Assembly (NCBI RefSeq): GCF_030690045.1
Contig: NZ_JAUYHK010000021.1
Span: forward strand, 62,001 to 126,000
DNA: 64,000 nucleotides
Reading direction: 5' to 3'
Source of the DNA: Thalassospira sp.
Lineage (GTDB): Bacteria > Pseudomonadota > Alphaproteobacteria > Rhodospirillales > Thalassospiraceae
Part shown: positions 4,092-60,404 of the stretch, in pieces
How the letters are laid out: each line of letters opens with the position of its first letter
How positions within the stretch are numbered: the stretch's first letter is position 1
Notes under the pieces: generated by a model
Told to the model about the DNA's origin: nothing
The model's input: the letters and a program-made list of their open reading frames with translations, nothing else
Databases searched by the model: none
Made by a program: the position numbers and the translations under genes

Positions 4092-4432
4092 TTGGCACCT
4101 GTGTCGTTGGATTGATTTTCGGAAGAACCTTTCGCCCGGGCGAAAGCCGTGATCCGGCCAAAAATCAGAAGTTGAACGCCTGCCAGCACGAAGGCATAAA
4201 GCAGGGTCAAAAGGGCGGCCTTGTTGAGAAGGTCTGCCATGTCGAGGACTTCAAGGCTGGCGAAAGCCGTGACAACCAGAACGACGAATTCCGGATCGAA
4301 CAGCAGCGCCAGCCAGCCCACCAGAAGGCAGGCCAGCACGATCCCCCGAAGGGAGCGGACGGCATGGCGGACAACGCCGCCATAAACCGTCAAGAATGTC
4401 TTGAGAGACTTGTTCATCTCGAAATCTTTCAT
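4088..4432 (-). CDS. Small membrane protein of the type IV secretion operon
   Basis: A 114-residue protein with two or three membrane segments, around residues 25-45, 48-60 and 75-95. It has no family I recognise. The C-terminal stretch QLLIFGRITAFAR resembles the end of the next protein (RLFIFGGISKPE), so the two are probably related to each other. The first start overlaps the virB6 stop as ATGA and is preferred; a second Met lies five codons further in. Encoded between virB6 and the virB7-like gene, it is likely an accessory inner-membrane piece of the channel. Confidence 0.75.
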   Translation of the reverse strand: MKDFEMNKSLKTFLTVYGGVVRHAVRSLRGIVLACLLVGWLALLFDPEFVVLVVTAFASLEVLDMADLLNKAALLTLLYAFVLAGVQLLIFGRITAFARAKGSSENQSNDTGAK

Positions 4433-6271: not shown

Positions 6272-6294
6272 AGTGCCGTAAACGCAAAGAGGGA

Positions 6295-7227
6295 TCATTC
6301 ACCACCTCCTGCGCTATTGCTGCCACCGGGAGCGTCAATTTTGCCTAATGCTTCATCAAGCGTTGCCTCGGGCGGCATCAGCTTCATCAAGGTTGCCGCC
6401 TGAATGCGAATGAGTTGGGCGCGTTGCTGTTGGGCCTGCACTTGCTGGCGGTTCTGATGCAGCAAAATCTTGTTCTGGACGGCGAGAAGTTCTTTCACAT
6501 CCTCCGACGCATCGGCCTCAGCTTCCAGTTCCTGGACAGTCTGTTCGTTGACCTCAACCTGATCAATAATCTGATCGGACTGTGAAAGGCCGGTATTGAT
6601 GGCGTCTTTGACGATCACATTCTGGCGATGCAGAACCTGTTCGCGGGCGCGATCCCGGGCAATTTTGTAAGCGATTTCTGCTTCTGGCGAGGCATCCGGG
6701 TTTTTCCAGTCTCCGGCATTGATATTCGCGCCCCAGTTTCCGCCTTCAGGAAAGGACCAGTCTTCAGGAGCGGAGCCATCATCGAATTTCCAACTGTCAG
6801 GATCATTCGGATCGAACCACAGCATTTCCTGATAGAAGCTGCGGCGGGCGCAAATGCTTTCCCAATCAAGTTCGTCAAGATTGATCCCCGGCATCAGGCC
6901 CGAGAGATCGGGCAGCAGGCAGCGGGCATCTTTTGAAACGGCCATCCCCAATTTGGCGAGATTGACAATTGGCATGGTGATGTTGCCAAGCTTGCCGATT
7001 GAATCGATCTGGTCCTGGGCAAGCTTGCTCATTTTGCCAAGGATTTCAGTTTGCTTCATCATCTGATCAAGCTGTTTTTGCAGGCTGTTGAACTGCTCCG
7101 TCAGCTTGACAAATGATGTGGCATCAAAAACCGGATAGGTGGCAAAGGCCGCGACCGGGGACAAAATCAATGCCCCGGCCAGCAGAAGGGTTTTCAGACC
7201 GCGCCTTTTCAGATGTGGTTTGTCCAT
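6295..7227 (-). CDS. virB5: VirB5/TrbJ-like type IV secretion protein
   Basis: Predicted periplasmic minor pilus component, 310 residues. It has an N-terminal signal sequence (Lys-Arg-Arg, hydrophobic core, Ala-Phe-Ala cut near residue 30), followed by a long helical region rich in Gln/Lys/Met (about residues 35-70). A second helical region rich in Glu/Gln lies near residues 190-270, typical of the VirB5/TrbJ helical-bundle proteins. The Met-Asp-Lys-Pro start is preferred; a GTG four codons upstream is possible. The start lies inside the end of virB4. The C-terminus ends in a Gly/Ser-rich tail. Confidence 0.82.
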   Translation of the reverse strand: MDKPHLKRRGLKTLLLAGALILSPVAAFATYPVFDATSFVKLTEQFNSLQKQLDQMMKQTEILGKMSKLAQDQIDSIGKLGNITMPIVNLAKLGMAVSKDARCLLPDLSGLMPGINLDELDWESICARRSFYQEMLWFDPNDPDSWKFDDGSAPEDWSFPEGGNWGANINAGDWKNPDASPEAEIAYKIARDRAREQVLHRQNVIVKDAINTGLSQSDQIIDQVEVNEQTVQELEAEADASEDVKELLAVQNKILLHQNRQQVQAQQQRAQLIRIQAATLMKLMPPEATLDEALGKIDAPGGSNSAGGGE

Positions 7228-41790: not shown

Positions 41791-43180
41791 TCCATGCCGC
41801 GCATTTGCGGTCGATGGTTTTGCGCGATATTCCCAACCGGCGGGCGGCCTCGCTGCGATTGCCATCGGTTTTTAACAACATGGTCATGATGTGACGCCGT
41901 TCGACATCTTCCAGTGTTTCGACCGGTTCGTCGTTGTTTTGACCAGAAAGGGACTGTTTGCGAAATTCGACCGGAAATTTGCCAAGGATCAGGGATCGTT
42001 CGATCAGATTGCGCAATTCGCGCACATTGCCGGGCCAGTCATAGGCGGCCAGTCCGGCCTGAACCGAACCGTCAATCAGGACAGGTGGCATGCCAAGCTG
42101 TTTGGACAGTTTCGCCATAAACAGTTTGGCCAGTTCAAGCGAATCATCACCGCGCTGGCGCAGGGGCGGCATGGCAATTTGCATGACATTGATGCGATAA
42201 AACAAATCGGCACGAAACCGACCTTTTTCGACTTCCTGTTCCAGATTGGCATTGGTGGCAAAGACAAAACGCAGATCAACCGGGACTTCGCGTTCCGATC
42301 CGACAGGCCGGATGCGCCGGTCTTCGATGGCGCGCAGCAACTTGCTTTGGGTGGCAAAGGGTAATTCGGCAATTTCATCCAGAAACAATGTCCCGCCCTG
42401 TGCATGCATGAACAGGCCGTCGCGTGCCGATTGCGCCCCGGTAAAGGCACCTTTCAGATGGCCAAACAATTCCGCCTCGATCATATCGGTGGGAATTGCT
42501 GCGCAATTGACGGGGACAAACGGCTTTTGGGCGCGGTCTGACAAGGCGTGGATCGACCGGGCGGTGACTTCCTTGCCAGTGCCGGATTCACCCGAAATCA
42601 GGATGGTGGTGGGCAAATGGGCGACCCGTGAAATCGTATCGCGGACCTCCTGAATTTCTGGTGAAAACCCGATCAGTTTGTCGCGCAACAAAACATGGTC
42701 GGAGGTTGCCTGCAATTCGTGGCGCAAGACATAATTTTCACTGCGTAACTGCATACGATCCAGACAGCGCGCGACCGCATTCAAAAGCTGGTTGGAGCGA
42801 AATGGCTTGAGGACAAAATCAACCGCCCCGGCCCGCAGGGCCTTGATCGCGGTGTCAAGATCGGCATAGGCCGTCATCAGGATGGCATCGGCGAAAAAAC
42901 CGATCTTGCGTTGTTCGGCAAGCCATTCTACACCGGTTTTTCCGGGCATGATGTTATCAAGGATCACGACATCATAATGATTGGCATCAAGCTTGCGCGA
43001 GGCGTCGGCGGCATCGGATGCTTCTTCAAGATGTTTGCAGCGCGGGCCAAGGGTTCGGACCAGAAAATTGCGCATTCCCGGTTCATCATCGACAATCAGG
43101 ATGGATGCCTGCGCCAGCCAGGGACCAAATTCCGGTCCGGTTGCTGTCTCGGCAATCTTGCCTGGCGCGGTCGATCTCAT
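41783..43180 (-). CDS. NtrC-family sigma-54-dependent response regulator
   Basis: A 465-residue activator. Receiver domain about residues 25-140 with the phosphorylated Asp75 (VVILDNIMPG) and Lys in VLKPF. The central AAA+ domain has Walker A GESGTGKE at 197-204 and the sigma-54-contact loop GAFTGA at 244-249, plus LFLDEIAEL. The C-terminal Fis-type helix-turn-helix is RSEAARRLGISRKTIDRK. It is cotranslated with the sensor kinase. The likely target is the sigma-54 promoter at 39626-39641. Confidence 0.95.
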   Translation of the reverse strand: MRSTAPGKIAETATGPEFGPWLAQASILIVDDEPGMRNFLVRTLGPRCKHLEEASDAADASRKLDANHYDVVILDNIMPGKTGVEWLAEQRKIGFFADAILMTAYADLDTAIKALRAGAVDFVLKPFRSNQLLNAVARCLDRMQLRSENYVLRHELQATSDHVLLRDKLIGFSPEIQEVRDTISRVAHLPTTILISGESGTGKEVTARSIHALSDRAQKPFVPVNCAAIPTDMIEAELFGHLKGAFTGAQSARDGLFMHAQGGTLFLDEIAELPFATQSKLLRAIEDRRIRPVGSEREVPVDLRFVFATNANLEQEVEKGRFRADLFYRINVMQIAMPPLRQRGDDSLELAKLFMAKLSKQLGMPPVLIDGSVQAGLAAYDWPGNVRELRNLIERSLILGKFPVEFRKQSLSGQNNDEPVETLEDVERRHIMTMLLKTDGNRSEAARRLGISRKTIDRKCAAWND

Positions 43181-46570: not shown

Positions 46571-47128
46571 TCAGGCCTTGGCGGTCGCCGCACCCGACGG
46601 ACCGGTCGTCTTTTTGGCATCGCCTTTGACAAATTCGGAGGCCTTGCGTTTGCCTTCTTCAAATTCGTCCTTGAAGCGTTCCTTCATTTCGGCGGCGTCA
46701 AAATCGACCGTCGTGCCACCCTTGGCAAAGTGCCATGCAAAAACGCGGCCCAGCGCATAGGTCGAGGCAGCGGCAAGGGCGGGCATGGCGACCATGCCAA
46801 ACACGGAACCGATCACCGGAACGCCCCGGACCAGCGATGCGGCGGTATAGCCGACACCGGTTGCCGGAAGGACGGTTGCGATCAGGGTGCCAATGGCATT
46901 TTTAACGGCATATTCTGAAAAACGAACGTCGTAAATATCGCAAAGTTTGGCGATCATCCGGATTTGAACGGTGCTGCTGGTGGCCATTTCAAGGAACGGC
47001 ACCGGTATCAATCCGCCAACAGCCGCATAAATCGCATGGCGATGAATGCAGTCTTTCGACAGCGCCAGAGTTTCATCTGCGACAGAGATTTCGTCTTCTG
47101 ACACAGTCGAGGTTGCTGCTTCGCTCAT
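46571..47128 (-). CDS. DUF697-like membrane protein A
   Basis: A 185-residue protein with two or three hydrophobic stretches: residues about 30-50 with HAIYAAVGGLIPVPFLE, about 80-100, and about 105-130. It ends in a charged Lys/Glu-rich tail. The repeated pattern Gly-Gly-X-Ile-Pro-X-Pro, X-Ile-X-Met-X-X-X-Leu-X-X-Tyr, and His-Phe-X-X-Gly-Gly-Thr is shared with two other genes in this window (48886-49410 and 53993-54511). They resemble the DUF697 group; function unknown. Single gene, convergent with the dehydrogenase pair. Confidence 0.8.
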   Translation of the reverse strand: MSEAATSTVSEDEISVADETLALSKDCIHRHAIYAAVGGLIPVPFLEMATSSTVQIRMIAKLCDIYDVRFSEYAVKNAIGTLIATVLPATGVGYTAASLVRGVPVIGSVFGMVAMPALAAASTYALGRVFAWHFAKGGTTVDFDAAEMKERFKDEFEEGKRKASEFVKGDAKKTTGPSGAATAKA

Positions 47129-47256: not shown

Positions 47257-48522
47257 TTATTGCGGCGCGCGCGGTGCCGGGGTTGCTTCTGATTCATTCA
47301 GGGTGCGCTGATGTTCCGGCAAGGCCGGGGTGTCGCCCTGTGCTGCGTCGGTCAGCGGCACGGGAACCTGTGGCAAGCTGGATGACGGATTCTGGTCGGT
47401 GGCGGGGCGAACCGGTGTCATTCTGGCACCATCAACACCGGGCGAAACCGCATTTTGCGGGGCGATATCGCGCAGGCGGGCATTCATTTCCGTCGGGTTG
47501 GCGGCTGGCGCACGGGAATCTTCGGTCAGTTCGGCGTCGGTTGCCGGTTGCGGTTCATCGGGCCCGGTATTGAGAATAACTGGCAGGCCATCCTTGCCGC
47601 CAATGATGATGGTCTTGCTGTTGCGCGATGTGGCAAGGGCCATCGTTGCCTCGATCCCGCGCAGTTTCAGATATTCACCGGTAATGGTGCGCGCGACGAT
47701 ATCCTGAAATTCCCGGATACCTTCGGCTTCGATGCGTTTGCGTTCTTTTTCTTTTTCTTCGCGGGCAATGCGGAAATCATATTCCAGCATCGCCTGATAT
47801 TGTTCGGCCTTGCGTTCAATCGCCTCGGCCACCCGTTCAGGCAGGGTCACACTGCGGATCAGGACATCTTCCACCGTTACCATGCGTCCCTGAAAACTTT
47901 GATTGATCAGGGATGATCCCAGTTCATTGACCATGCGTTCGAGAATTTCGGCCTGAATGAAGGCGCGGGTTTCGGTATAGAGCTGTTCCGGGGTGTAACG
48001 CGAGATCAGTTCGCGGGCCTGTGATCCGATTTCCGGATAGACCAGAATTTCCGGGAAATTCGGCCCGACCAGTTTGTGCAGCATGCCTGCGGTATCGGGG
48101 TTGATGCGATAGCGCACGGCGATATCCACCTGCATCGCCAGACCATTGGATGAAATGGTGTCATAGATGCGCGCATTGTTTTGCAGACGCGCATCATAGA
48201 TATACATTTCATCCCACGGGAAAATCATGTGGATGCCTTCGCCAAAACTGCGATCAATCACTGTTCCGCCAAAAAAGCGATACCACAATACCCCGGTATG
48301 ACCGGCTGGGATGGTAATGAAAATCCGGGGGGCCAGCACGATCATGCCGATCACGATGAAAAACAGGGTGATCAGGATCGACATCGAATGACGATGGATC
48401 AGGCGTGCCACGCCATCCAGCATCCGCTGGACATGGCGGCGCAGGGAAAACCGTTTCGGAGTCGGGGTTGCCGGAATGTCCGGGCCTGATGCCGTGTTGT
48501 CGGTGTCGCGTGTGTCAGCCAT
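47257..48522 (-). CDS. SPFH/band-7 (prohibitin-like) membrane protein
   Basis: A 421-residue protein with one membrane segment (about residues 47-70), then a band-7/prohibitin domain (about 70-260: GHTGVLWYRFFGG, VDIAVRYRINPD, TRAFIQAEILERM). A helical Glu/Lys/Arg-rich segment (about 255-285) and a long disordered Pro/Thr/Ala-rich tail follow. Such proteins form rings that organise membrane microdomains and guard membrane proteases. Flanked on both sides by DUF697-like membrane proteins on the same strand. Confidence 0.92.
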   Translation of the reverse strand: MADTRDTDNTASGPDIPATPTPKRFSLRRHVQRMLDGVARLIHRHSMSILITLFFIVIGMIVLAPRIFITIPAGHTGVLWYRFFGGTVIDRSFGEGIHMIFPWDEMYIYDARLQNNARIYDTISSNGLAMQVDIAVRYRINPDTAGMLHKLVGPNFPEILVYPEIGSQARELISRYTPEQLYTETRAFIQAEILERMVNELGSSLINQSFQGRMVTVEDVLIRSVTLPERVAEAIERKAEQYQAMLEYDFRIAREEKEKERKRIEAEGIREFQDIVARTITGEYLKLRGIEATMALATSRNSKTIIIGGKDGLPVILNTGPDEPQPATDAELTEDSRAPAANPTEMNARLRDIAPQNAVSPGVDGARMTPVRPATDQNPSSSLPQVPVPLTDAAQGDTPALPEHQRTLNESEATPAPRAPQ

Positions 48523-48580: not shown

Positions 48581-48778
48581 TTATTCGATTTCAGTATCGT
48601 TGATCTTGCGGCGCAGCGCACGCGAAGGCCGGGCCACAAGTTGCACCAGAAAATCGCCAAGCGGCGTGATGATCAGGGCCAGCACAAAATGTCCGATAAA
48701 GCCAAATGCCGTTTGGCGACCGATCAGGCCGCACAATATTGCAGCGATCAGATACAGAATAATAACGGCGACGTACAT
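48581..48778 (-). CDS. Small two-segment membrane protein
   Basis: A 65-residue protein. Two hydrophobic stretches (about residues 3-20 and 24-46) and a basic C-terminal tail are visible. The Met-Tyr-Val start has a GGGGGA Shine-Dalgarno; a longer frame upstream is not supported. Encoded between the SPFH gene and a DUF697-like gene on the same strand. No family recognised. Confidence 0.7.
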   Translation of the reverse strand: MYVAVIILYLIAAILCGLIGRQTAFGFIGHFVLALIITPLGDFLVQLVARPSRALRRKINDTEIE

Positions 48779-48885
48779 GATTTCCCCCTGTGTGTCCCCG
48801 AAACCGGGTCCATAGTCTGTCATCGTAGGGCCGTTGCCCGATACCGACAATCCCAAATTCCATTCCATGCAGAACGGTGCCGACT

Positions 48886-49410
48886 TCAGGCGGCTTTCGG
48901 GCTGTATTTTTCGGCAACGACTTTTTTGCCTTCATCGAATTTTTCGCGGAAATAACTGTCGGTTTTTTTCGGGTCGAAGGTCAGAATCGTGCCGCCTGCG
49001 GCGAAATGTTGCTGAAACACCTTGCCCAGCGCATAGGTAAAGGCGGCAGTAAAGACCGGCATTGTCAGGGCCTTCAGGCCATACCCCAAAACCGGAACCA
49101 TTCTGGCGATCCCGTAAAACAGGCCCGACCCGACCAGCGACTTGCCCATCAGATTGGCCGTCAGGCTTGTCAGGAGGGAGGCGACTACTGATTTTCCACT
49201 GTTATAGGAAAACGGCACCTCGTAAACATCGCTGAGCTCGGCCAGCATTTTAAGCTGGATGGCGATTGTTGCCGATGTATCCACCACCGGTATCGGGATC
49301 AGCCCGGTGCCCAGCGCCCATAACATATTGTTACTGATCACATTATTGCCGCGCAAATGGCGGCGGCGTTCTGTCTGGATTTGCTTTTTGTCGTTTTTGT
49401 CGTTGCTCAT
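48886..49410 (-). CDS. DUF697-like membrane protein B
   Basis: A 174-residue relative of the proteins encoded at 46571 and 53993. Hydrophobic stretches lie near residues 28-48 (GTGLIPIPVVDT), 70-85 and 95-125. The family pattern continues with IAIQLKMLAELSDVYEVPF and QHFAAGGTILTFD, and the C-terminus is Lys/Glu-rich. The start Met-Ser-Asn-Asp-Lys is preferred over an upstream Met that would add a poor 28-residue leader. It is divergent from the five-gene sensor operon across about 197 bases that hold no gene I can see. Confidence 0.8.
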   Translation of the reverse strand: MSNDKNDKKQIQTERRRHLRGNNVISNNMLWALGTGLIPIPVVDTSATIAIQLKMLAELSDVYEVPFSYNSGKSVVASLLTSLTANLMGKSLVGSGLFYGIARMVPVLGYGLKALTMPVFTAAFTYALGKVFQQHFAAGGTILTFDPKKTDSYFREKFDEGKKVVAEKYSPKAA

Positions 49411-49607
49411 GACCGGTTTTGCCCCAACCTGTTCAAACCAAAAAGAAAGTAAACGCTTGCACGCCGCCCCGCAATCGTTAATGGAAAACAGCACGGCTAC
49501 TTGACGCTGACGGTTTGTCGGGCAAGCATGAGGTGGGGGAAATCAATGCGGAAATACCATATGACCAATGTCACCGGATTCGTATCACGCAATATCGGGA
49601 AACGATT

Positions 49608-50357
49608 GTGAGTCTGTCTTTCAAGATCGGGATGTCGTTGTCGTTGGTGCTGGCAGCGGCCCTTGCCCTGACCACGGTTCTGAATTTTCTGCGGTTTGAT
49701 GAAACCCTGCATGATTTTCTGAGCCAGCGCATGACCGTGATCCTCAGCGAGGCAAGGCGCGAAATGCTGACGGGACTCGATCTGGGCCTGCGGCTGGAAA
49801 ATCTGGAAAATCTGTCGGACGGGCTTGAACGTCATATGCGTGCCGCCGATGACATCCGGGCGATCGAGGTTTTGGGATGTGACGGCAGCCTGATCACCGG
49901 TGCTGGTGATGTTGGGGGCTCATATGCGGGTTTTGTCACACCAACGACCGATCAATGGGAAATTTTGGGCGAGGCGGATGTGATTTCCGGGGCGATTTTG
50001 CGTGACAGTGTCGGGCAATGCGCGGGTTATGTCCGCATCATTGCCAATATTGCCGATTACCGCGCCACCCTGGACCGGGCCTTTGTCAATTTGTGGCAGG
50101 CCGCCGCCCTTGGCATGATGACCATCGTGCCGGTTTTGCTGGTTCTGGTGATATTGATGCGCCGTCGTCACCGGATTTTTGTCGAATTGCAAACCGATCT
50201 TGACCGTGCCATCGCCGGGGAACAATCGGGCGGGCCGACCCATGATGGCGATGCCCTGACCGCCGGGGAACGGCAGATGATTGGCCTTTATCGCGAAGTG
50301 CGCGATAAATTGACGACGGATCATCCGTCCGGCAATGGCAGAGGGACAAAGCCATGA
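49608..50357 (+). CDS. Membrane-anchored periplasmic sensor-like protein
   Basis: First gene of a five-gene overlapping operon. The product, about 249 residues, has a membrane segment at residues 8-28, a periplasmic domain of about 140 residues, a second membrane segment (about 165-188) and a short cytoplasmic tail that may be HAMP-like. There is no kinase, cyclase or methyl-accepting domain. No ATG is in frame before residue 9, so I use the GTG at 49608 with a GGGAAA site; the exact start is uncertain. It has the same layout as the N-terminal part of the next protein. Function unknown, probably signal input. Confidence 0.7.
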   Translation: MSLSFKIGMSLSLVLAAALALTTVLNFLRFDETLHDFLSQRMTVILSEARREMLTGLDLGLRLENLENLSDGLERHMRAADDIRAIEVLGCDGSLITGAGDVGGSYAGFVTPTTDQWEILGEADVISGAILRDSVGQCAGYVRIIANIADYRATLDRAFVNLWQAAALGMMTIVPVLLVLVILMRRRHRIFVELQTDLDRAIAGEQSGGPTHDGDALTAGERQMIGLYREVRDKLTTDHPSGNGRGTKP

Positions 50358-52303
50358 CGGCGATCCCGGCGAAACGGAAAACCGGTTTTTTCGGCGGAAC
50401 GATCTGGATTCTGCTTTTGGTCAGTGTCGTGGCGTTGTGTATTTCTCTGGTCGGGATTTCATGGCGGGCGGCCAATCTGGCCGAAAATGATTTGCGCATC
50501 GATATGGGCAAAAAAGCCCAGATTGAAATTCATGTTCTGGCGACCAAGATTGAACGCGCCGAAAGGCTGGGCATACCGATTCCCGATCTGGTCGGTTTTG
50601 CCGATTTGTTTGCCGGGATGCAGGCCGGTGATCCGGATTTGATGTTTGCCGCAATTCGCGATTCCGGCGGGATGATCCTGCATGCTGCCGGGGTGTCGAA
50701 AACCGATATTGCCAGCAGTCTGGAACAGGGGAACGACGCCGGGGATACGTCCCATATCGTCACTTGGCGGCAATTGGGCGCATATCAACTGGTGATCGGT
50801 CATGACCGGGCGGCCCTGATGCGGCCCCTGACCGATAATCTGTTTGATATTGTGGTGGTGCTGGTGGTGGCGCTGGCGCTGTCGTTTGAATTGATGTTGC
50901 TGGTTCTGACCGTCAATGTCGCCTTGCCGGTCCGGGTCGCCAGCCGGGTTCTGGACAATATGCGCGATGGCAAATTTTCCCTGCTGCACGGGCAAAGCAG
51001 CCGTGATGAAATTGGTCAGTTCATGGCCCGGATCAACGCGGTCATCACCAGTACAGCCCGCAATATTGGTGCCAAGGCCAAACCGGCCCGCGAAGTCCGT
51101 CTGATTGGCGTGCGGATGCTGGCGTTTTTGTTTGTCCTGTCCGAAGAACTGGCCCGCCCGATCATGCCGACCTTTTTTGCCGAGGTGACGGCAGGAACGA
51201 TGGACGGGCAACTGGGGGCCGGAACGGTAATGGCGATCCATCTTTTGATGATTGCGATTGCCATGCCGTTGTGCAGTCTGGTGCAAGGGCGGATCGGGTC
51301 GTTGCGGATGTATCTGGTTGGGGCGGGGCTTGCGACGATTGGTCTGTTTGGCACCGCCTTTGCCGGTGGTTTTTGGGATCTGGTGATCTGGCGGGCTTTT
51401 TCGGGATTTGGCTATGCCACCACCTTTGTCGCCTGTCAGGGATATGTTCTGGACGCGACAAGCGATAAAAACCGCACCCAAGGGTCGGCGATGATGGTTA
51501 GCGGCATCATGCTGGCCGATATTTGCGGCCCGGCGATTGGCGGCATCATCGCCAGCCATGTTGGATCGGCAGTGGCCTTTATGATGGGCGGGGGTGTGGC
51601 GTTGCTGTCGGTGGCGCTGGCATTTTTGCTGATTGACGGGGCTGTTCGGGGTGACAAAGCCCCGCCGGTGCCGACAAAGGCAGCATTTCGGGCTTTGTTG
51701 CGCAATCGGCGTTTTGTGGTGCTGGTTCTGTTTGCCGCCGCCCCGGCCAAACTGATCCTGAGCGGATTTTTATATTATATGGTGCCATTTGCCCTGTGGC
51801 AGACCGGGGCCAATATTGCCGAAATGGGTCGTGTGATTATGATTTATGGTCTAGTGGCGTTGTTGTCGGGCTGGTTCATTGCCCGGTGGACCGACGCCAA
51901 ACAGGCAGAAACCCGTGCGGTTGGTATTGGCGGCGGGCTGACCGCCCTTGGCCTGATCGGGGCGGGGTTGGTGCCGGGATTTGGCATGATGGCATTGGCG
52001 GTTGGTTTGTTGGGGTTGGCACATGCGACATCAATCCCGGCGCAATTATCGGCCAGCCTGAAACTGAGCAAGGATTTTGTCGATCTTCATGGTTCCGGCC
52101 CGGTTCTGGCAGTCTTGCGCCTGTCGGAACGTCTGGGCGGAGCGTTGGGTCCGATCAGTGGGGCATGGCTGGTGGTGACGTTTGGGGTGGTGGATGCGAT
52201 GTTGTATATGGGGTTGTTTGCCCTGTTTTGCGTCATCTGCTTTGAAATTCTGATTGGCAAGGTGCCAAAAGACACCACCCCGCAAGCGGAAGGTACAAAA
52301 TGA
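50354..52303 (+). CDS. Sensor-HAMP-MFS fusion transporter
   Basis: A 649-residue protein of unusual build. Residues about 15-35 span the membrane, 36-160 are periplasmic, about 165-190 span again, and a HAMP-like linker follows (about 190-245, VRVASRVLDNMRDGKFSLL, SRDEIGQFMARINAVI). The rest (about 255-640) is a major-facilitator transporter with 12 segments. The MFS part has the QGRIGSLRMYLVG loop and a GFGYATTFVACQGYVLDAT segment. A sensory input joined to a transporter suggests a gated carrier or transporter-like receptor. The ATGA start overlaps the previous gene. Confidence 0.85.
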   Translation: MTAIPAKRKTGFFGGTIWILLLVSVVALCISLVGISWRAANLAENDLRIDMGKKAQIEIHVLATKIERAERLGIPIPDLVGFADLFAGMQAGDPDLMFAAIRDSGGMILHAAGVSKTDIASSLEQGNDAGDTSHIVTWRQLGAYQLVIGHDRAALMRPLTDNLFDIVVVLVVALALSFELMLLVLTVNVALPVRVASRVLDNMRDGKFSLLHGQSSRDEIGQFMARINAVITSTARNIGAKAKPAREVRLIGVRMLAFLFVLSEELARPIMPTFFAEVTAGTMDGQLGAGTVMAIHLLMIAIAMPLCSLVQGRIGSLRMYLVGAGLATIGLFGTAFAGGFWDLVIWRAFSGFGYATTFVACQGYVLDATSDKNRTQGSAMMVSGIMLADICGPAIGGIIASHVGSAVAFMMGGGVALLSVALAFLLIDGAVRGDKAPPVPTKAAFRALLRNRRFVVLVLFAAAPAKLILSGFLYYMVPFALWQTGANIAEMGRVIMIYGLVALLSGWFIARWTDAKQAETRAVGIGGGLTALGLIGAGLVPGFGMMALAVGLLGLAHATSIPAQLSASLKLSKDFVDLHGSGPVLAVLRLSERLGGALGPISGAWLVVTFGVVDAMLYMGLFALFCVICFEILIGKVPKDTTPQAEGTK

Positions 52304-53304
52304 TCCGCAAAATTGTCCGATGCGTGTTGCTGGTTGGGGTATTACTGGTTATGGCGGCCCCGGTGTTGCGGGCACAGGAAGCCGATCCGTTTCGCATCGC
52401 CCTGATTTTGTGGCGGGGCGAGACCGAGGTGGAGAAAGGCTTTCACGATTATTTCACCAGCCAGAACATCCCGGTTGTCTTTGAAACCTACAATCTTGAT
52501 CGCAATATGGATGCGATGCCGGGCATTCTGGAAACCATCCGGCGCGATCCGCCCGATCTGGTCTATACATGGGGAACCGGCATTACGATGGCGGCGGTCG
52601 GACCGCATGACGCGGTTGATCCGGCCCGCCATATCACCGATATCCCGGTGGTGTTTGTGATGGTGTCGGCCCCCTGGCAAACCGGCATTGCCGCACCGCA
52701 AGGACAAACCCGCCCCAATGTCACAGGGGCGGCGCATATCGCGCCGTTATCGGCCCAGATCAATGCCATTCGCGCCTATCGTCCGATGGATCGTCTGGGG
52801 GTGGTGTTTAATGCGGACGAGGCAAATTCGGTCGCCAATATCGCCGATCTGACGGCATTGGGACAGGAAATGGAGTTTGAAGTCCTGCCCGCCCCGCTGG
52901 GCGATGGAGATTCCCCGGCCAACCCCGAAGACATTGCAGGCAAAGTGGCAGAACTGGCGAAACAGGGGGCCGATTTTTTATATATCGGGCCGGATAACTT
53001 TATTGGCACCTATCGCGATATTCTGACCGGGGCCGGGTTTGACAATGGTCTGGCAACCTTTAGCGCCACCGAACTTGAAATTCGTGATGGGCAGGCCATG
53101 TTTGGACTGGTCAGTCGTTATGAACTGGTCGGGCGACTGGCGGCGACCAAGGCGGTGCAGATTTTGCGCGACAATGTTGCACCTGGCGATATTCCGGTGG
53201 AAACACTGGAAAGGTTTTCCTATCTGATCCGGCTGTCGGCGGCCAAACGTCTTGAATTATACCCGCCTCTGCCCTTGCTTGATTACGCGGAAATTATTGA
53301 ATAA
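52300..53304 (+). CDS. ABC_sub_bind-type periplasmic binding protein without ABC partners
   Basis: A 334-residue exported protein. Signal peptide to about residue 25 (LLVGVLLVMAAPVLRA), then a two-lobed binding fold of the TrpX-like ABC_sub_bind family: FRIALILWRGETEVEKGF, PPDLVYTWGTGITMAA, IPVVFVMVSAPWQTGI, and RLGVVFNADEANSVANI. Such proteins usually deliver aromatic amino acids or other small molecules to ABC permeases, but no permease or ATPase is here. It may instead present a ligand to the sensor or MFS proteins encoded before it. Its ATGA start overlaps the MFS stop. Confidence 0.85.
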   Translation: MIRKIVRCVLLVGVLLVMAAPVLRAQEADPFRIALILWRGETEVEKGFHDYFTSQNIPVVFETYNLDRNMDAMPGILETIRRDPPDLVYTWGTGITMAAVGPHDAVDPARHITDIPVVFVMVSAPWQTGIAAPQGQTRPNVTGAAHIAPLSAQINAIRAYRPMDRLGVVFNADEANSVANIADLTALGQEMEFEVLPAPLGDGDSPANPEDIAGKVAELAKQGADFLYIGPDNFIGTYRDILTGAGFDNGLATFSATELEIRDGQAMFGLVSRYELVGRLAATKAVQILRDNVAPGDIPVETLERFSYLIRLSAAKRLELYPPLPLLDYAEIIE

Positions 53305-53996
53305 TGCAGATCAAACGCCTGCAAGACCGGCATCTGGCCGATATTATCGCCCTGCATCATCTTGTGCTGGCCGGAATTCCGGCGGGGTTTGCGGCGCGTG
53401 AAAGCGATGATTTTTTTGCCGGTCATCTTGACCAAAGTGGTCGGATTTTTGGCATTTATGCCGAAGGTACCCTGATGGTCTATGGCGTTTTGGGATTGCC
53501 CAGACCGGGTGATGCCAATTTTGGCAATGATCACCATCTGCCCACAGAACTTTTGCCCAAGGTTGCCCATATTGACGGGGTGGCGGTGCATCCGGCATGG
53601 CGCGGGCAGGGATGGCAACGCAAAATGATTGCCTTTCGTCTGGCACAGGCTCCCCAATTTGGGCGCGACATTGCGTTATCAACCGCCGCACCGGCCAACC
53701 GGCCCAGTGTGATCAGTTTGTTGTCCTGCGGGCTGAGCATTCGGGGCATTGTCGAAAAATTTGGCGGGACGCGCTATTTGATGCGGCGCGATCTTGTCAC
53801 CGGGGTGAACAATGATACCGCTATATCAGCAGACGCCATGACATCGTCGCAATGGCTGATTATGGATGATCTGCAACAACAGCAACAGGCATTGGCGCAA
53901 GGGCGGATCGGATATGCCTTTGCGCAGACAGACGGGATCGATATGATCGCCTATGGTCGGGCCACTATGGATCATTATGGCAGGGTGAGTAAATGA
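53304..53996 (+). CDS. GNAT-family N-acetyltransferase
   Basis: A 230-residue cytoplasmic protein with the acetyl-CoA-binding motif GVAVHPAWRGQGWQRKMIAFRL near residues 92-113 (Arg/Gln-X-X-Gly-X-Gly/Ala form). The beta-strand region before it and SLLSCGLSIRG after it complete the GNAT core. Start and previous stop share a base (TAATG). Substrate unknown. The enzyme's place in a receptor/transporter operon suggests it acts on the transported or sensed compound, or modifies a partner protein. Confidence 0.83.
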   Translation: MQIKRLQDRHLADIIALHHLVLAGIPAGFAARESDDFFAGHLDQSGRIFGIYAEGTLMVYGVLGLPRPGDANFGNDHHLPTELLPKVAHIDGVAVHPAWRGQGWQRKMIAFRLAQAPQFGRDIALSTAAPANRPSVISLLSCGLSIRGIVEKFGGTRYLMRRDLVTGVNNDTAISADAMTSSQWLIMDDLQQQQQALAQGRIGYAFAQTDGIDMIAYGRATMDHYGRVSK

Positions 53997-54511
53997 TGAC
54001 GCAGCAAACCACAACGATGGCAGAAGATGTTGCAGAACGTGACGTTCTGATCACCCAATTGCGCCAGTCACGGGCACAGGAAACGGTAGAACGCCATGCG
54101 ACCTATTCCGCCGTTGGCGGGTTTATACCCTTGCCGCTGGTTGATATTGCCAGCGTGATCGCGGTTAATGTCAGCATGTTGCGATCCCTGTCGGAATATT
54201 ATGATCAGCCGTTTGAACGCAGTCGGACGGTGGCGCTTGTCGGTGCGGTGGCAACATCACTGTTGGCATCGGGATCAGGGTCGGTGGCGACATGGGCCTT
54301 GGCGCGAATCGTGCCGGGGGCCAATGTGATTGGTATGGCGGCGGCATCGACGGTGGCGGCCATTCTGACCCGGCGTCTGGGCGGCGTTTTTATCGCCCAT
54401 TTCGAGGCAGGCGGCACCATTTTCGATTTCAACGAAGACCAGTTGCGCGAAGCGATTGACGCCTTGCGCGCAGCCTCTGCGCAAAAGCGTGGCAAGACAG
54501 CCCCGGCCTGA
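53993..54511 (+). CDS. DUF697-like membrane protein C
   Basis: A 172-residue third member of the local family, with HATYSAVGGFIPLPLVDIA near residue 36, MLRSLSEYYDQPFERS near 62, hydrophobic stretches near 80-100 and 110-130, and AHFEAGGTIFDFNEDQ near 142. It closes the five-gene operon; its start overlaps the GNAT stop as ATGATGA. The next gene is convergent, 8 bases away. Confidence 0.82.
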   Translation: MMTQQTTTMAEDVAERDVLITQLRQSRAQETVERHATYSAVGGFIPLPLVDIASVIAVNVSMLRSLSEYYDQPFERSRTVALVGAVATSLLASGSGSVATWALARIVPGANVIGMAAASTVAAILTRRLGGVFIAHFEAGGTIFDFNEDQLREAIDALRAASAQKRGKTAPA

Positions 54512-54519
54512 CGGCGCGA

Positions 54520-55755
54520 TCAGTTACTGTAATTGCGACGGGGCTGGGGGATTTCCTCTGCAAAATTCTGTTGCCAGGTGCAGGCATTGTCGCCCGCCTG
54601 CCAATAGCAGGCCGCCCCGTCATGGAAAGGCAGGAAATTGCCCTTTTCCTTTAAATCGCTGGCGGTCAGGCTGTGAAAAGCCGGATGCATGGTGCGCAGT
54701 TCCGCAATATTTTCATGGACCACCCGCGACAGCCAATAAATGACATAGGGATTGGCCGGGGCATAGGCGATCACTGATGCCTTGAAACCATAGGATTCAA
54801 CAGGTTCGTTTTGCCCCGGATAGGTGTTGGCAGGCAGGGCCTGATGGAAAAAATAACTGTTTTTGTCGATCAGTTGATCCGTTCCCGGCCCGCCCATACC
54901 AACCACCCGCGCCTTGCAGGCCGATATCGTATCGAGAATCGGTGTTGCCGGATGGCCGATCCACAGGCCATAGGCATCAATGAAATCATCACAAATGCCG
55001 ATCTGGTTATAATCCTGCGCCACGCCGTAAATCGTTCGCAGGTCTTGTGCGGTGATGTCATAGCTGCTTAAAAGTTCGGTCCACAGGGCGCGTGATGCCG
55101 ACCCTTCTGGGCCAACATTGATACGTTTGCCCCGCAAATCGGCGACGGAACGAATTCCGGAATCCGGACGAACCACCAGCAACCCCATTTCATCATGCAA
55201 GGACATGACTGATCGTGCGCCGGGAATCGGGCTGATACCCTGGGCGGCATCCCAATTGGTGTTGGATTGCACGATGGCGACCTGAACGCGGCCTTCTTTC
55301 ATCAGTTCGACATTGCTGGCGACCCCGCGTGACCGCAAGGGTACGCAGCGGATATGATGCTGCTCATAGGTCTGGCGCATCAATTCGCAAACTTTTCCGG
55401 CGACCTGAAAATAAACGCCGGTCGTGCTGCCGCTATAAATTGCCAGATAATATTCTTTCTGGCGGCGGGTGCTGTTGTTGTCACTGTCGGTCATGCCTGG
55501 CACGCCATCAACACCTTGCCAGTCAGTCTGATATTGTGACAGGGGAATCGCGTCGGGTTTATAGGGGTATTCGCTGAAATTGCTGCGGTTTGATGATGTG
55601 CCGTTTGCAAGAGATTCTGTTGGGACCTGGTTTAGCGGTACCATGACATCCTGTGCCAATGCGTGGCCGACCCATCCGGCGCAGGCGATGATCGCAACGC
55701 CAAGCAGACCACAAATTCCGTTAAGGCAGGGCGAATATGTGCGCGCAGATGTCAT
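54520..55755 (-). CDS. TAXI-family TRAP-type solute receptor (orphan)
   Basis: A 411-residue exported protein. An N-terminal signal or anchor (about residues 12-36, ending Ala-Leu-Ala) is followed by a Ser/Asn-rich linker and a TAXI-type binding domain. That domain has YYLAIYSGSTTGVYFQVAGKVCELM near residue 103, CVPLRSRGVASNVELMKEG, and RGKRINVGPEGSASRALWTEL near 215. No TRAP membrane protein is present nearby. Ligand unknown, perhaps an amino acid or dicarboxylate. Divergent from an ammonia-lyase-like gene 90 bases away. Confidence 0.85.
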   Translation of the reverse strand: MTSARTYSPCLNGICGLLGVAIIACAGWVGHALAQDVMVPLNQVPTESLANGTSSNRSNFSEYPYKPDAIPLSQYQTDWQGVDGVPGMTDSDNNSTRRQKEYYLAIYSGSTTGVYFQVAGKVCELMRQTYEQHHIRCVPLRSRGVASNVELMKEGRVQVAIVQSNTNWDAAQGISPIPGARSVMSLHDEMGLLVVRPDSGIRSVADLRGKRINVGPEGSASRALWTELLSSYDITAQDLRTIYGVAQDYNQIGICDDFIDAYGLWIGHPATPILDTISACKARVVGMGGPGTDQLIDKNSYFFHQALPANTYPGQNEPVESYGFKASVIAYAPANPYVIYWLSRVVHENIAELRTMHPAFHSLTASDLKEKGNFLPFHDGAACYWQAGDNACTWQQNFAEEIPQPRRNYSN

Positions 55756-55845
55756 GATTACTCTTGAAGACACGGAAACTGAAACAACCTACATGATGAG
55801 GATTAGCATAATCATCGTCGATATTTAAGATTATCATATAAACTT

Positions 55846-57021
55846 TTGAGGCGGGCCGATATTCTGCACCCCCGAACATCTGAAGCGAGACAAGAATTGC
55901 CCGATGCGTTGCCTTTTTTACCGGATGCGAGACCTGCCGATGCAACAATTGTGGGGGATGAAACGGCGATTCTGAGCCGCGATTGTATTGCGCAGGCGCA
56001 GGCGACAATGGGCGGGTGGCCGGAATACCGGCCCAGTCCGCTATTGTCTGCGCCCGGTCTGGCGAAAATGCTGGATGTCGGGGCGGTGTGGATCAAGGAT
56101 GAAAGCGAACGGTTCGGCCTGGGCGGTGTCAAGGCGTTGGGCGCACCCTATGGCCTGTTGATGATGCTGGATGATCACGGGGTTCCACCGGGCAGTGATG
56201 CTTGCGGTAACTATACCGCCGTGGCGGCGACCGATGGCAATCATGGTCTGGCGTTGGCATGGGCGGCGGCGCGGTTTGGCTGTCATGCCCGGATTTATGT
56301 CGGGCGCGATATCGATGTTGGTCGGACGCAGCGCATTCGCGATGCCGGGGCGGAAATTGTGGTTGTTGAGGGGACCTATGACGATGCGGTTCTGGCCGCC
56401 GAACGTGATGCCGAAACCCCGTCCGTTTTGCTGGTGACCGACACCGATTATACCGGTGATCTGACGGTGACACGGGCGATCATGGCGGGATATGCCATTC
56501 TGGGGATCGAAGCCGCCAGACAGTTAAAGGATGCGGGGGCGCAGCCATCGCATGTTTTCCTGCAATGCGGCGTTGGCGGCATGGCGGCCGGAATTGCCAC
56601 CGGACTTTGGCAGGCCAGCGGCGTCAAACCGGCGGTGATCACGGTGGAGGCGACGAATGCTGCCTGTCTTGATGCCAGCCTGCGGGTGGGTAAACCGGTT
56701 GCCGTTCCCGGTACGCTGGCAACCCGGATGGTCGGGTTATCCTGCGGGCGGCCCAGCAAGCCTGCCTTTGATATTTTGCGCGATCTTGCCGTGGGCAGCG
56801 TGATTGTCGATGACGATACCGCGAAACAGGTGCAGGACACGATGATGGCCGGGGTCAATGGCGATGCCCCCCTTGCCACCGGGGATACCGGGGTGGCGGG
56901 CATTGCCGGATTGTGGCAGGCTGCAACGTCCCCCGATCTGCGCAGCCGTCTTGGGCTGAACCGGCAAAGCTGTGTTCTGGTGGTCAATAGCGAAGGGCCG
57001 TTGCCACCGCAATATGCCTGA
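55846..57021 (+). CDS. Diaminopropionate ammonia-lyase-like PLP enzyme
   Basis: A 391-residue fold-type II PLP enzyme close to diaminopropionate ammonia-lyase (YgeX/DpaL), which splits 2,3-diaminopropionate to pyruvate and ammonia. The PLP-binding Lys is at about residue 96 in ERFGLGGVKALGAPYG, the cofactor Asn/Gly region is AATDGNHGLALAWAA near 126, and GVGGMAAGIA near 240 is the phosphate loop. No ATG or GTG lies in frame near the N-terminus. The frame opens at a TTG (55846) without a clear Shine-Dalgarno, so the start is uncertain. Serine/threonine dehydratase is a less likely alternative. Confidence 0.83.
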   Translation: MRRADILHPRTSEARQELPDALPFLPDARPADATIVGDETAILSRDCIAQAQATMGGWPEYRPSPLLSAPGLAKMLDVGAVWIKDESERFGLGGVKALGAPYGLLMMLDDHGVPPGSDACGNYTAVAATDGNHGLALAWAAARFGCHARIYVGRDIDVGRTQRIRDAGAEIVVVEGTYDDAVLAAERDAETPSVLLVTDTDYTGDLTVTRAIMAGYAILGIEAARQLKDAGAQPSHVFLQCGVGGMAAGIATGLWQASGVKPAVITVEATNAACLDASLRVGKPVAVPGTLATRMVGLSCGRPSKPAFDILRDLAVGSVIVDDDTAKQVQDTMMAGVNGDAPLATGDTGVAGIAGLWQAATSPDLRSRLGLNRQSCVLVVNSEGPLPPQYA

Positions 57022-58650
57022 TTATTTTACCGTTTCGATCTGACCGTCGCGCATGTGATAGATATGATCTGCGCGGTCGAACCAGCGGTCATCATGGGTG
57101 ACACAAATGATCATTTTGCCCTGCGCCCGCAATTCGGGCAGCAGTTTTTCATAAAAGAACGCCCTGAAATGCGGATCCTGATCGGCGGCCCATTCATCAA
57201 GGACCAGAACCGGCTTGTTTTCCAGCAATGCTGCAACAAGGGCCAGGCGCTTGCGTTGTCCCTGTGACAGGTCGGTGGTGGAAAAACGGTTGCCGGTCAG
57301 GGTGACCTTGGTGTCGATTTCCATCTGATGCAACAGGCGGTTGGCCTGATCCGGGTCGATATCTTCATGTCCGTAAAGTTCAGAAAACAAATGATAGTCG
57401 GAAAACACCGTGGCAATGCAATCGCGCCATGATTGCATCCGGGTAGGGTCAATATCCACATCATCCACTGCAATCGCCCCGGACGCCACCGGGCGCAATC
57501 CGGTCAGAAGGGCGATCAGCGTGGATTTTCCCGATCCGTTGCCGCCGGTAATAAAACTGATTTCACCACGCCGAAAGGTGATGGAAAGCGGCCCGACGGC
57601 AAAACCCCGGCCATCAGTCGGATCGCGATAGGCAAAACTGGCATCGCGCAGTACGATTTCGCGGGGATCAAGTGCCGGCCATTGCGCCGTGTTGTCGCTG
57701 CCATGATGATCGCGGGCGAGTTCATCCTGCATTTCCTGATCCAGCGCATTGAGGCGCGACAGGGCATTTTCGGCATCGCCAAGGGCGGGGATGGTTTGCA
57801 TGAAAGCACCAATCGGGCCGATCATGAACAGGGCGGCGGTGGTGGTTTGCATTGCCATGTCGTGATAATCGGTGGTGAACATCGGCACGACAAACACCAT
57901 CATTCCCATCATCAGATAGAAGGCGAGTTGAATCATCGCAAATTCCCGCCCCCATTGTTCCTTGATGGTGGTTTTGGCCGTGCGGGCATCGTGGGAAAAA
58001 CCATGCAGATCGGTCAGCAAATCCTGTTCGCGGGTGCGATTCAGGCGGACTTCCTTAAAACCATGTAAAAGGTCGGTCAATCCGCCAAACAGGCGACCTT
58101 CATCGGCGGTGGCCTTTTGTCCGGCGGCCAGAACGGCGCGCATGCGATGAATATGGACAAAGGCGGCGACTGCGCTGAAAATCGCGATCATCACAAAAGC
58201 AATGACCGATAATGATGCCAGATAAAGACTGACAAAGACCAGCATGACCATCTGTTGCACGCCAATCAAAATCATCGGCAGGGATGTGGAAATATTTTGC
58301 ATTTCCTGGGTCAGGGCGGACTGCAAACGCCCCTGTCCGATGCGGGCCAAAAGATCCGGCCCGGCGGCGCGTACCCCGTCGAACAGCCGCACCCGCATAT
58401 CATGCAGGATATATTCAACTTCGCGGGCGGTAATCAGATTGGCCTTTTTTTGTGCCCAGGCAAAACCCAGAACCGATACCGCCATCAGGGCGAGCAGACG
58501 TAAACTGACATCCCCATTGGATGCCTGTTCGGCGGCCATATTGACGACCATCAGGATCAGGGTGGTGGAAATTGCCGCCAACGCCGACAGGGCAATTACC
58601 CCGCGCAGGCTGACCCGTGCCCGGGTTCGGATCAGCTTAATCAGCAGCAT
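57022..58650 (-). CDS. Cyclic-peptide-exporter-like ABC half-transporter 1
   Basis: A 542-residue fused membrane/ATPase half-transporter of the SyrD/PvdE-like family. Up to six membrane segments precede residue 310. The ATPase has Walker A GGNGSGKST near 385, signature LSQGQRKRLALVAALL, Walker B PVLVLDEWAADQDP and the switch His in ICVTHDDRWF. The signature reads Leu-Ser-Gln-Gly-Gln, a family trait, rather than Leu-Ser-Gly-Gly-Gln. Start at Met-Leu-Leu-Ile-Lys has a GGGAGGG site and overlaps half-transporter 2 by 14 bases, pointing to a heterodimer. Substrate unknown. Confidence 0.88.
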   Translation of the reverse strand: MLLIKLIRTRARVSLRGVIALSALAAISTTLILMVVNMAAEQASNGDVSLRLLALMAVSVLGFAWAQKKANLITAREVEYILHDMRVRLFDGVRAAGPDLLARIGQGRLQSALTQEMQNISTSLPMILIGVQQMVMLVFVSLYLASLSVIAFVMIAIFSAVAAFVHIHRMRAVLAAGQKATADEGRLFGGLTDLLHGFKEVRLNRTREQDLLTDLHGFSHDARTAKTTIKEQWGREFAMIQLAFYLMMGMMVFVVPMFTTDYHDMAMQTTTAALFMIGPIGAFMQTIPALGDAENALSRLNALDQEMQDELARDHHGSDNTAQWPALDPREIVLRDASFAYRDPTDGRGFAVGPLSITFRRGEISFITGGNGSGKSTLIALLTGLRPVASGAIAVDDVDIDPTRMQSWRDCIATVFSDYHLFSELYGHEDIDPDQANRLLHQMEIDTKVTLTGNRFSTTDLSQGQRKRLALVAALLENKPVLVLDEWAADQDPHFRAFFYEKLLPELRAQGKMIICVTHDDRWFDRADHIYHMRDGQIETVK

Positions 58651-60304
58651 TTTGCGACCCTCCCGGTGCGGTATTGGTGGTGATTTCATCCAGACGTCCA
58701 CCTTCAAGATGGAACCGGCGGTCGGCGACGTCGAAATAATGGTCGTCATGGGTGACGGCGATCACCATCATGCCACGCGATTTCAGATCGGGCAGAATTT
58801 CGTGGTAAAATTTGCGCCGGAAATACGGGTCCTGATCGGCAGCCCATTCATCAAGCACAAGGATCGGCCGGTTTTCCAGAATGGCAACCAGCAAGGCAAG
58901 GCGTTTGCGTTGGCCCTGCGACAGGTCGGTGGTGACAAAACGGCCATCGCGAATGGCGGTAACATGATCGATTTCCAGCCGGTGCAGCCAGAATGCCGCA
59001 TCGTCGGGGTTGATATCGGACATGCCATACAGCCGCGCAAACAGATGAAAATCAGAAAACACCGTGGCGATCAAACCGCGCCATGCCGGAATGCTTTGCG
59101 GGCCGATGCGCAGATCATCAAGGGTGATATGGCCGCGATCCGGGCGATAAAGGGCCGTCAGAAGTTTGATCAGGGTGGATTTTCCCGACCCGTTACCGCC
59201 GGTGATAAACACCAGTTCATCGCGTTTAAGCGTGATATCAATCGGCCCCAGATGAAATCCATGCGCCGGGTCATCGCGGCCATAGGCAAATTCAACATCC
59301 TGAAAGGTAATGGTTTTGAAATCATCCGGAATGGTGATCGGCGCACCATCGGCCACCGGTTCAACCATTTTTTCCAGATCGGCGGCAAGGTCGATCATCC
59401 GGGCGGCGGCATTTTCGGCTGCCCCCAATGTTGACCATGATTGCACGACCATGCTGATCGGGCCGATCATGAATAAAACGGCGGTACTGACTTTCATCAC
59501 CGATCCGCTGAAATCCGGGGAATAGACAGGTACGACAAACACCACAACGGCCAGCAGCACATAAAACGCGACCATGCCAATGATCGATTGTTGAAAAATC
59601 AATCCATGCAGGGCAGTGCCAGATATTTCCTTTTGTTCGGAAATGTCGCCAAAAGCCGCGCCAAGGGCCGCGCTGCGGCGTGATGACATGCGAACTTCCT
59701 TGATGCCGTAAAACAGGTCGGCAACCCGTTCAAACATCCGGTTTTCAATGCCGCAGACTGAATAATAAATCGCGCCAAGCTGTTTGCCTGATTTCAGATA
59801 AATGAATGTACCTAGCGCAATGACGGTGATCACCAGAACAAAGGCCAGTGTGGACAGCCAGAAAATATACAACATCACCGCAATCACCAGCAGGGCAGAC
59901 CGAAAGGCGATGGCCAGTACCGGCGAATTTTGCGAGATTGTCTGACTGTTTTGGGTGATGCTTTCATAGAGGCGGGCCTGACCGAATTGTTCGAGCCGGG
60001 CAAAGTCGGCCCGCGCAATCAGATCCAGCAGATTGCCACGCACCCGGTCAATGCCGGTTTCGACTTGTGCGCCGATGCGGCCAATCAGGTAAATTTCCGA
60101 CAGGAAATAGACAGTCGCGGTAACGGCAAAGGCTCCGGCCAAAAGCCAGTCGACCTGATCAACACCATTATCGACGATTTCGGCGGCCGCGGTATTGACG
60201 ATGCCCAGCAAAACCGCACTGCCGCCGCCCGAAAGGGCCGCGCACACCGTCAGACGGGTCAGAAGCCTGTGATCGCCAGAAGACAGCAGATCAAGCAATT
60301 TCAT
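58637..60304 (-). CDS. Cyclic-peptide-exporter-like ABC half-transporter 2
   Basis: A 555-residue paralogue of half-transporter 1 with the same plan: membrane region to about residue 310, Walker A GGNGSGKSTLI near 370, signature LSQGQRKRLALLVAIL, Walker B PILVLDEWAADQDP and His in AVTHDDHYF. Both halves keep the catalytic Glu. First gene of a two-gene unit, 154 bases after the iolG stop; a terminator lies in that gap. The neighbouring ammonia-lyase and TAXI genes hint at amino-acid-derived substrate, but nothing proves it. Confidence 0.88.
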   Translation of the reverse strand: MKLLDLLSSGDHRLLTRLTVCAALSGGGSAVLLGIVNTAAAEIVDNGVDQVDWLLAGAFAVTATVYFLSEIYLIGRIGAQVETGIDRVRGNLLDLIARADFARLEQFGQARLYESITQNSQTISQNSPVLAIAFRSALLVIAVMLYIFWLSTLAFVLVITVIALGTFIYLKSGKQLGAIYYSVCGIENRMFERVADLFYGIKEVRMSSRRSAALGAAFGDISEQKEISGTALHGLIFQQSIIGMVAFYVLLAVVVFVVPVYSPDFSGSVMKVSTAVLFMIGPISMVVQSWSTLGAAENAAARMIDLAADLEKMVEPVADGAPITIPDDFKTITFQDVEFAYGRDDPAHGFHLGPIDITLKRDELVFITGGNGSGKSTLIKLLTALYRPDRGHITLDDLRIGPQSIPAWRGLIATVFSDFHLFARLYGMSDINPDDAAFWLHRLEIDHVTAIRDGRFVTTDLSQGQRKRLALLVAILENRPILVLDEWAADQDPYFRRKFYHEILPDLKSRGMMVIAVTHDDHYFDVADRRFHLEGGRLDEITTNTAPGGSQNAAD

Positions 60305-60404
60305 CGGTTTACCATTTCCCCAACGCGCACCGGTCACATTTGGGCGACTGTAAACATGGCCCTGCCTGCTGTCCAGCCATGCATATCAGAACCACCCGGA
60401 AATC

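Follow-up and report, generated by a model that had tools for sequence, protein, structure and literature searches.

What could five overlapping genes do together that join sensing, carrier-like and ligand-binding proteins in a single string? The question is raised by a stretch of 64,000 nucleotides from Thalassospira sp. (contig NZ_JAUYHK010000021.1, positions 62,001 to 126,000; hereafter the window, with positions counted from its first letter), in which an earlier note had seen a transporter-like receptor of five genes. The string begins with a membrane sensor without an output domain (49608..50357, plus strand; an open reading frame (ORF) with a GTG start and no Pfam match above cut-off). 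It continues on the same strand with a fusion of a sensor, a HAMP domain and a major facilitator superfamily (MFS) carrier (50354..52303; 649 amino acids; MFS_1 1.8e-31), an orphan periplasmic binding protein of family PF04392 (52300..53304; ABC_sub_bind 2.6e-14), a GNAT-fold protein (53304..53996; Acetyltransf_1 2.5e-6) and a DUF697 protein (53993..54511; DUF697 1e-18), the matches of these last four each lying above the family cut-off. From sensor to DUF697 the junctions overlap by 4, 4, 1 and 4 bases, and the description of five reading frames joined by overlaps of one or four bases therefore stands. Only the first three genes are conserved as a group, and this three-gene membrane unit probably senses a molecule outside the cell and helps to control secretion or export.

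The conserved core consists of a Cache-like sensor, the sensor-HAMP-MFS fusion and the orphan PF04392 binding protein. It was traced in 73 loci from one GTDB genome scan, minus one spurious locus (L105, 27% identity over residues 290-443) and plus the window, which gives 73 again. They belong to alpha-, beta- and gammaproteobacteria, with one record (L084) labelled Ignavibacteriota that may be mis-binned; near-identical loci (L038/L039, L035/L043 and L033/L034) are counted separately. The fusion is accompanied by a sensor in all 73 loci, as a separate gene in 70 and fused in three (L046, L086, L089), and by the binding protein in 71 (it is missing in L040 and L087). The GNAT gene is found in 37, while DUF697 is a downstream, co-directional member in nine, for which reason a system of five genes was rejected. 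Of the earlier expectation that the five genes travel together, the part concerning the sensor, the fusion and the binding protein holds, and the unit is still best read as a transporter-like receptor that has an orphan binding protein, at a scope of three genes rather than five.

The same linkage is seen within the order of the window's genome. Among 150 sampled genomes the fusion was matched at E<=1e-30 in 34, and in 32 of these the binding protein is encoded no more than 3 kb away on the same contig, as judged by comparing positions by eye. The exceptions are G090, with the fusion at a contig end and the binding protein on another contig, and G137, in which no binding protein was matched; four genomes (G005, G006, G037 and G066) have a binding protein match and no fusion match. 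A search with the sensor at E<=1e-8 found it in 19 of the 150, and since the sensor is the least conserved of the core proteins, single-sequence searches miss it. The overlaps are also conserved. A candidate start four bases before the end of the upstream gene exists at the sensor/fusion junction in 45 of 70 loci, at the fusion/binding protein junction in 61 of 71 and at the binding protein/GNAT junction in 31 of 36; these starts are possible rather than proven, the script having taken whichever in-frame start codon lay closest to the stop of the upstream gene. Because this position recurs across loci, the overlaps exceed chance. A promoter scan was uninformative, giving three sites where 3.1 were expected and none that precedes the operon, and terminator-like sites (12 against 5.9 expected) were not used as evidence.

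The second gene of the unit encodes the fusion. The homologue search gave at least 94 relatives, a count that takes in the protein of the window itself and the weak, partial matches P0093 and P0094, and in 23 of the 94 listed, Vibrio proteins among them, the separate sensor and the fusion are one protein. A misreading of two genes as one was considered and rejected, as reading frames running unbroken from sensor through MFS are found across the whole set of loci. Positions of both parts are conserved together in the same frame across 81 relatives: in the sensor part D165 (79) and E179 (80), and in the MFS part the charged residues E264 (79), R347 (81), K466 (79), D514 (79), E592 (79) and R593 (78). 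MFS_1 covers residues 256-568, and no other family reaches its Pfam cut-off in the fusion; for HAMP, Pfam makes no call in the fusion of the window. Among nine relatives scanned, HAMP is above cut-off in P0087 (5e-8) and below it in P0092 (0.0042) and P0042 (HAMP_2 0.03), and in most relatives such matches stay below cut-off. The structure of P0031, a sensor-fusion relative, was predicted with confidence (predicted local distance difference test score, pLDDT, 85.7; predicted template modelling score, pTM, 0.82). It has a long helix, a strand and a helix ahead of the MFS part, a pattern that matches HAMP. According to the same model, the MFS part has a drug/H+ antiporter (DHA1) fold: its nearest relatives in a fold search are VMAT2, NorA and SotB, MdfA is also in the list, and G6PT chains rank below VMAT and NorA. 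As regards kinship to organophosphate antiporters, TIGR00881 (PgtP family) matches the fusion only weakly (2.4e-5, below cut-off).

The label Cache-like for the sensor rests on Pfam, which matches dCache_1 in 10 of the 30 sensors of this kind that were scanned (9.1e-5 at best; the window's own sensor is unmatched), and on the alpha-beta pattern of the P0031 model, whose fold list was filled by MFS chains. An iterated sensor profile also matches the N-terminal sensor of the fusion, which makes a paired arrangement of the two sensors natural. This kinship rests on the merged profile, which took in fusion sequences during its three rounds, and on alignments over the full length; when the window's sensor and fusion were compared directly by BLAST, no real match resulted (0.52). 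Neither protein of the window contains a GGDEF-EAL domain.

The binding protein is adjoined by the fusion and the GNAT gene, and the operon contains no ABC permease or ATPase gene of an importer. It matches three solved structures by sequence, 6hni, 3lkv and 3lft, and the same three head the fold list of P0042; against the TrpX model it scores 71.6 bits, the cut-off being 390. Since 3lft holds L-tryptophan according to its title, an amino-acid-like ligand is a first guess, by analogy. P0042 is the sole protein in which fusion and binding protein are joined (pLDDT 90.9, pTM 0.70; the model was not used for docking). It is kept as weak evidence, because it is one record and an apparent signal peptide, found by reading, is retained between MFS and binding protein; a frameshift or an assembly error could have made it. 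Between the types of gene neighbourhood described below, the binding protein is 32-49% identical (nine loci, three per type), which suggests a ligand class shared across contexts. The sensors, which outside Thalassospira and Fodinicurvata share 14-32% identity with that of the window in a comparison not like for like with that of the binding protein, appear to be adapted to their partners.

What the unit is connected to differs between relatives. By context, 24 loci are of an exporter type, 31 have SpoIIE, 11 are of a type VI secretion system (T6SS) type and in seven none of these was found. The 24 exporter-type loci make up one clade with support 100, the only clade used from a tree that was built by a quick search with long-branch warnings, and they hold SPFH, TAXI, ammonia-lyase and exporter genes, not all in every locus. 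Matches to non-ribosomal peptide synthetases (NRPS) or polyketide synthases (PKS) lie within the flanks of 16 of them, as counted in stored flanks of at most 9 kb, with those of L034 and L050 cut by contig ends; the domain strings read C-A-PCP-KS-AT-ACP in L048 and A-MT-PCP-TE in L042. The window's locus is itself of the exporter type, with export, SPFH, TAXI and ammonia-lyase genes and without NRPS/PKS, and the fusion proteins nearest to its own are from Thalassospira (63-65% identity; 68% to L044 in the tree alignment).

A SpoIIE phosphatase is encoded in the flanks of 31 of the 73 loci, and 28 of these have further matches to STAS and/or HATPase, with the HATPase match in some cases inside the phosphatase itself; the three SpoIIE proteins examined with Pfam carry HAMP matches, one of them below cut-off. 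Of the 11 Roseomonas-type loci among them, 7 continue with an exporter that resembles the NHLM kind (TIGR03796 810 bits, below the cut-off of 853). The T6SS-type set is made up of nine Oxalobacteraceae and two Vibrio loci, which are two separate groups in the tree. The nine have a Ser/Thr kinase with PP2C, together with TagF in seven and TssK in the flank in three (L055, L056 and L091), while in Vibrio (L086, L089) a T6SS cluster surrounds the unit, with ClpV on one side and a second binding protein, FHA, TssJ and TssK on the other. Ten further stretches were included, eight picked for a weaker fusion match or an unusual order and two for a binding protein without fusion. SpoIIE adjoins the unit in four (L110, L113, L115, L119); L116 and L117 contain the binding protein alone, and L112 has no binding protein match.

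On the basis of these observations, a mechanism can be proposed. The sensor, the fusion and the binding protein would form a three-protein receptor in the inner membrane. The binding protein may pick up a small, possibly amino-acid-like ligand and, once loaded, would dock on the pair of Cache-like sensors provided by gene 1 and the N-terminus of gene 2. The signal would then presumably run down the second transmembrane segment (TM2) into HAMP and change the state of the MFS part directly behind it. This part could act on partner proteins by switching state in the way a carrier does, and it might also transport to some extent. In relatives, SpoIIE/PP2C phosphatases together with STAS proteins are the probable partners, or else a Ser/Thr kinase paired with PP2C. 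The target would be machinery of export or antagonism: a T6SS, an NHLM-kind peptide exporter, or ABC exporters of the cyclic-peptide type, whether or not an NRPS accompanies them. We put at about even the chance that the unit is such a binding-protein-loaded HAMP-MFS receptor feeding the control of export and antagonism. If so, a periplasmic signal could set the state of a carrier, or a carrier could serve as signal output, and the unit, found time and again next to genes for PP2C/STAS, Ser/Thr kinase, T6SS and peptide export, would supply an input for the control of secretion. The binding protein, well conserved across contexts, would be the easiest handle on it.

Several points weigh against this proposal. 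Genes that are neighbours need not have products that interact, and the most closely related loci do not count as independent cases. The seven loci outside the recurrent contexts include three on short contigs (L059, L063 and L103), and in four of the ten further stretches (L111, L112, L114 and L118) the core, or part of it, occurs without SpoIIE. The window's own locus contains no kinase, phosphatase or T6SS gene. Its genome lacks TssK (PF05936), so that a T6SS was rejected as the target of the unit in this organism; its single SpoIIE is on another contig and has a different make-up, as judged by reading the translation, and a SpoIIE partner at the window was likewise rejected. Lastly, the charges kept in the MFS part are, by sequence, those that would be expected of a working carrier.

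HAMP domains drive kinases, cyclases and chemoreceptors. A unit made of a binding protein, paired sensors and HAMP would be expected to signal towards the cell interior. With only an MFS behind HAMP, this part should be either a regulated output, as in a gated transporter, or a switch that contacts partners in the manner of UhpC. As a gated transporter, it would be an H+-coupled efflux or uptake carrier, opened and closed through HAMP by the sensors when these are loaded by the binding protein, and transport itself would be the output. The antiporter-like fold, the retention of the six MFS charges in nearly all relatives, the position of the MFS directly after HAMP, where an output domain would be placed, and the cyclic-peptide exporters in the window's locus all agree with this explanation. 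However, a transporter alone leaves the SpoIIE/STAS, Ser/Thr kinase/PP2C and T6SS neighbours unexplained, and UhpC (PMC7607045) is an example of an MFS protein serving as a receptor. We consider the switch likelier because PP2C/STAS and Ser/Thr kinase neighbours recur, and regard the gated transporter as rather unlikely.

A different explanation concerns only the genome of the window, where the genes could be a leftover or self-protection set: relatives would make a nonribosomal product, and this strain would have lost the synthetase and kept sensing, export by the ABC pair and breakdown by the ammonia-lyase so as to live beside producers. The NRPS/PKS genes in the flanks of two thirds of the exporter-type loci, with none in the window's, would fit such a history. 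The genome of the window contains no condensation domain, and the synthetase of L042 finds only seven matches in it, at 26-29% and all to the adenylation part. On the other hand, this genome is 97% complete, and the occurrence of the core in SpoIIE and T6SS loci is left unexplained. Moreover, 8 of the 24 loci have no NRPS in reach (two being cut by contig ends), so that the loss of a synthetase, like a tie between the relatives' product and these genes, is conjecture. We find this explanation improbable. That the five genes merely stand in a row and share no function is scarcely credible and, for the three core genes, strongly disfavoured: GNAT and DUF697 come and go, but the core co-occurs in 71 of 73 loci and 32 of 34 genomes, sensor-fusion proteins exist and the overlaps recur.

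Returning to the binding-protein-loaded receptor, each of its parts is of a known kind, and the combination is that of an orphan-binding-protein receptor crossed with an MFS receptor. The precedent for the latter is UhpC of UhpABC, the glucose-6-phosphate receptor, an MFS protein without an enzymatic output domain that acts on a partner protein, as the excerpts of PMC7607045 describe it. Here, by contrast, a periplasmic sensor and HAMP are built into the MFS protein itself, which also has a binding protein. No histidine kinase was found adjoining: the neighbours scanned between 46571 and 60337 include neither a histidine kinase nor a response regulator, and a response regulator lies about 6 kb away (41783-43180). 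The genes linked to the unit in relatives are PP2C/STAS or Ser/Thr kinase genes instead. For the orphan binding protein, the precedent is NspS-MbaA, where, according to the excerpted text of PMC5646818, a periplasmic binding protein signals by acting on a membrane sensor and does not serve import; by analogy, the same may hold here. MbaA ends in GGDEF-EAL in that text, whereas an MFS stands behind the sensor here and the binding protein is of family PF04392. TrpX/CD0873-type proteins share this family and fold, but the operon has no ABC permease or ATPase, and the drug:H+ antiporters NorA, SotB, MdfA and VMAT lack the N-terminal sensor, HAMP and binding protein seen here.

The likeness to SpoIIE/STAS partner switching is a neighbourhood link only, relatives of the unit being situated beside SpoIIE with STAS. 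The same is true for T6SS control by Ser/Thr kinase and PP2C, which relatives adjoin together with TagF in seven of nine loci and which we take to be comparable to the PpkA/PppA type. To our knowledge, the sensor-MFS-binding protein unit is not part of either pathway. In the open-licence papers searched, no description of a binding protein combined with a sensor pair, HAMP and MFS was found, in agreement with the earlier note, which knew of none for the set. Tentatively, the unit could be imagined to form a class of envelope receptors of its own, with the signal of a binding protein passing through a pair of Cache-like sensors and then HAMP to an MFS carrier used as a switch. As a part of this same, rather doubtful idea, it would be a shared 'competition sensor' for one ligand class, plugged into T6SS, NHLM-kind and NRPS/cyclic-peptide export via Ser/Thr phospho-signalling.

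The two remaining genes of the string seem to be accessories. GNAT is present in all 24 exporter-type loci, in the nine Oxalobacteraceae loci of T6SS type, in one of the 31 SpoIIE loci (L068) and in three of the seven context-free ones (L063, L075 and L080), as well as in the stretches L110 and L115. We take the acetyl-CoA loop motif of GNAT acetyltransferases to be Q/R-x-x-G-x-G/A. In 38 aligned rows (the 37 loci and a second copy of the window's GNAT), R100 is kept in 38, G103 in 18, and position 105 is Q or H in 38 and never G or A, a departure from the motif in every row. Because the loop is altered, ordinary acetyl transfer appears doubtful, and with it the suggestion that GNAT modifies the ligand or a partner; the protein might instead use a different acyl donor or serve in binding. 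Between GNAT and DUF697, a ParA/MinD-like ATPase gene occurs in L047, L048, L053 (12432-13325), L054 and L057.

The operon faces a divergent block on the minus strand, with a DUF697 protein (46571..47128; 5.3e-9), an SPFH/Band 7 protein (47257..48522; Band_7 3.7e-24; found in 23 of the 73 loci), an ORF of 95 amino acids (48581..48868; no Pfam match) and another DUF697 protein (48886..49494; 2.6e-11; given as the longest frame). All three DUF697 proteins found in the genome are encoded at this locus. On the 3' side, a TAXI-type binding protein gene with no TRAP permease adjoining (54520..55773, minus strand; TIGR02122 1.7e-54, above cut-off; a relative in 23 of 73 loci) points back toward the operon. 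It is followed by a diaminopropionate ammonia-lyase family enzyme (55846..57021, plus strand; NF006058 309.9 bits, cut-off 276) and two cyclic-peptide-type ABC exporters on the minus strand (57022..58749, TIGR01194 305.1 bits; and 58637..60337, given as the longest frame, 321.8 bits; cut-off 286.2).

Some minor features of these neighbourhoods may be added. Relatives of the 95-amino-acid ORF occupy about the same position in five other loci (L041, L044, L045, L046 and L051). A second orphan binding protein lies near the unit both in the window, where it is the TAXI type, and in Vibrio, where it is of the SBP_bac_3 type (L086 11788-12528). In L119, two more sensor-like genes (4060-8020) stand ahead of the SpoIIE gene that adjoins the unit. 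In Thalassospira and Pleomorphomonas relatives (L048 240-6338, L042 706-4230, L033 18709-19488 and L037 3264-4034), the unit is adjoined by NRPS/PKS genes, a thioesterase gene and the gene of a possible phosphopantetheinyl transferase, the last a weak match below cut-off.

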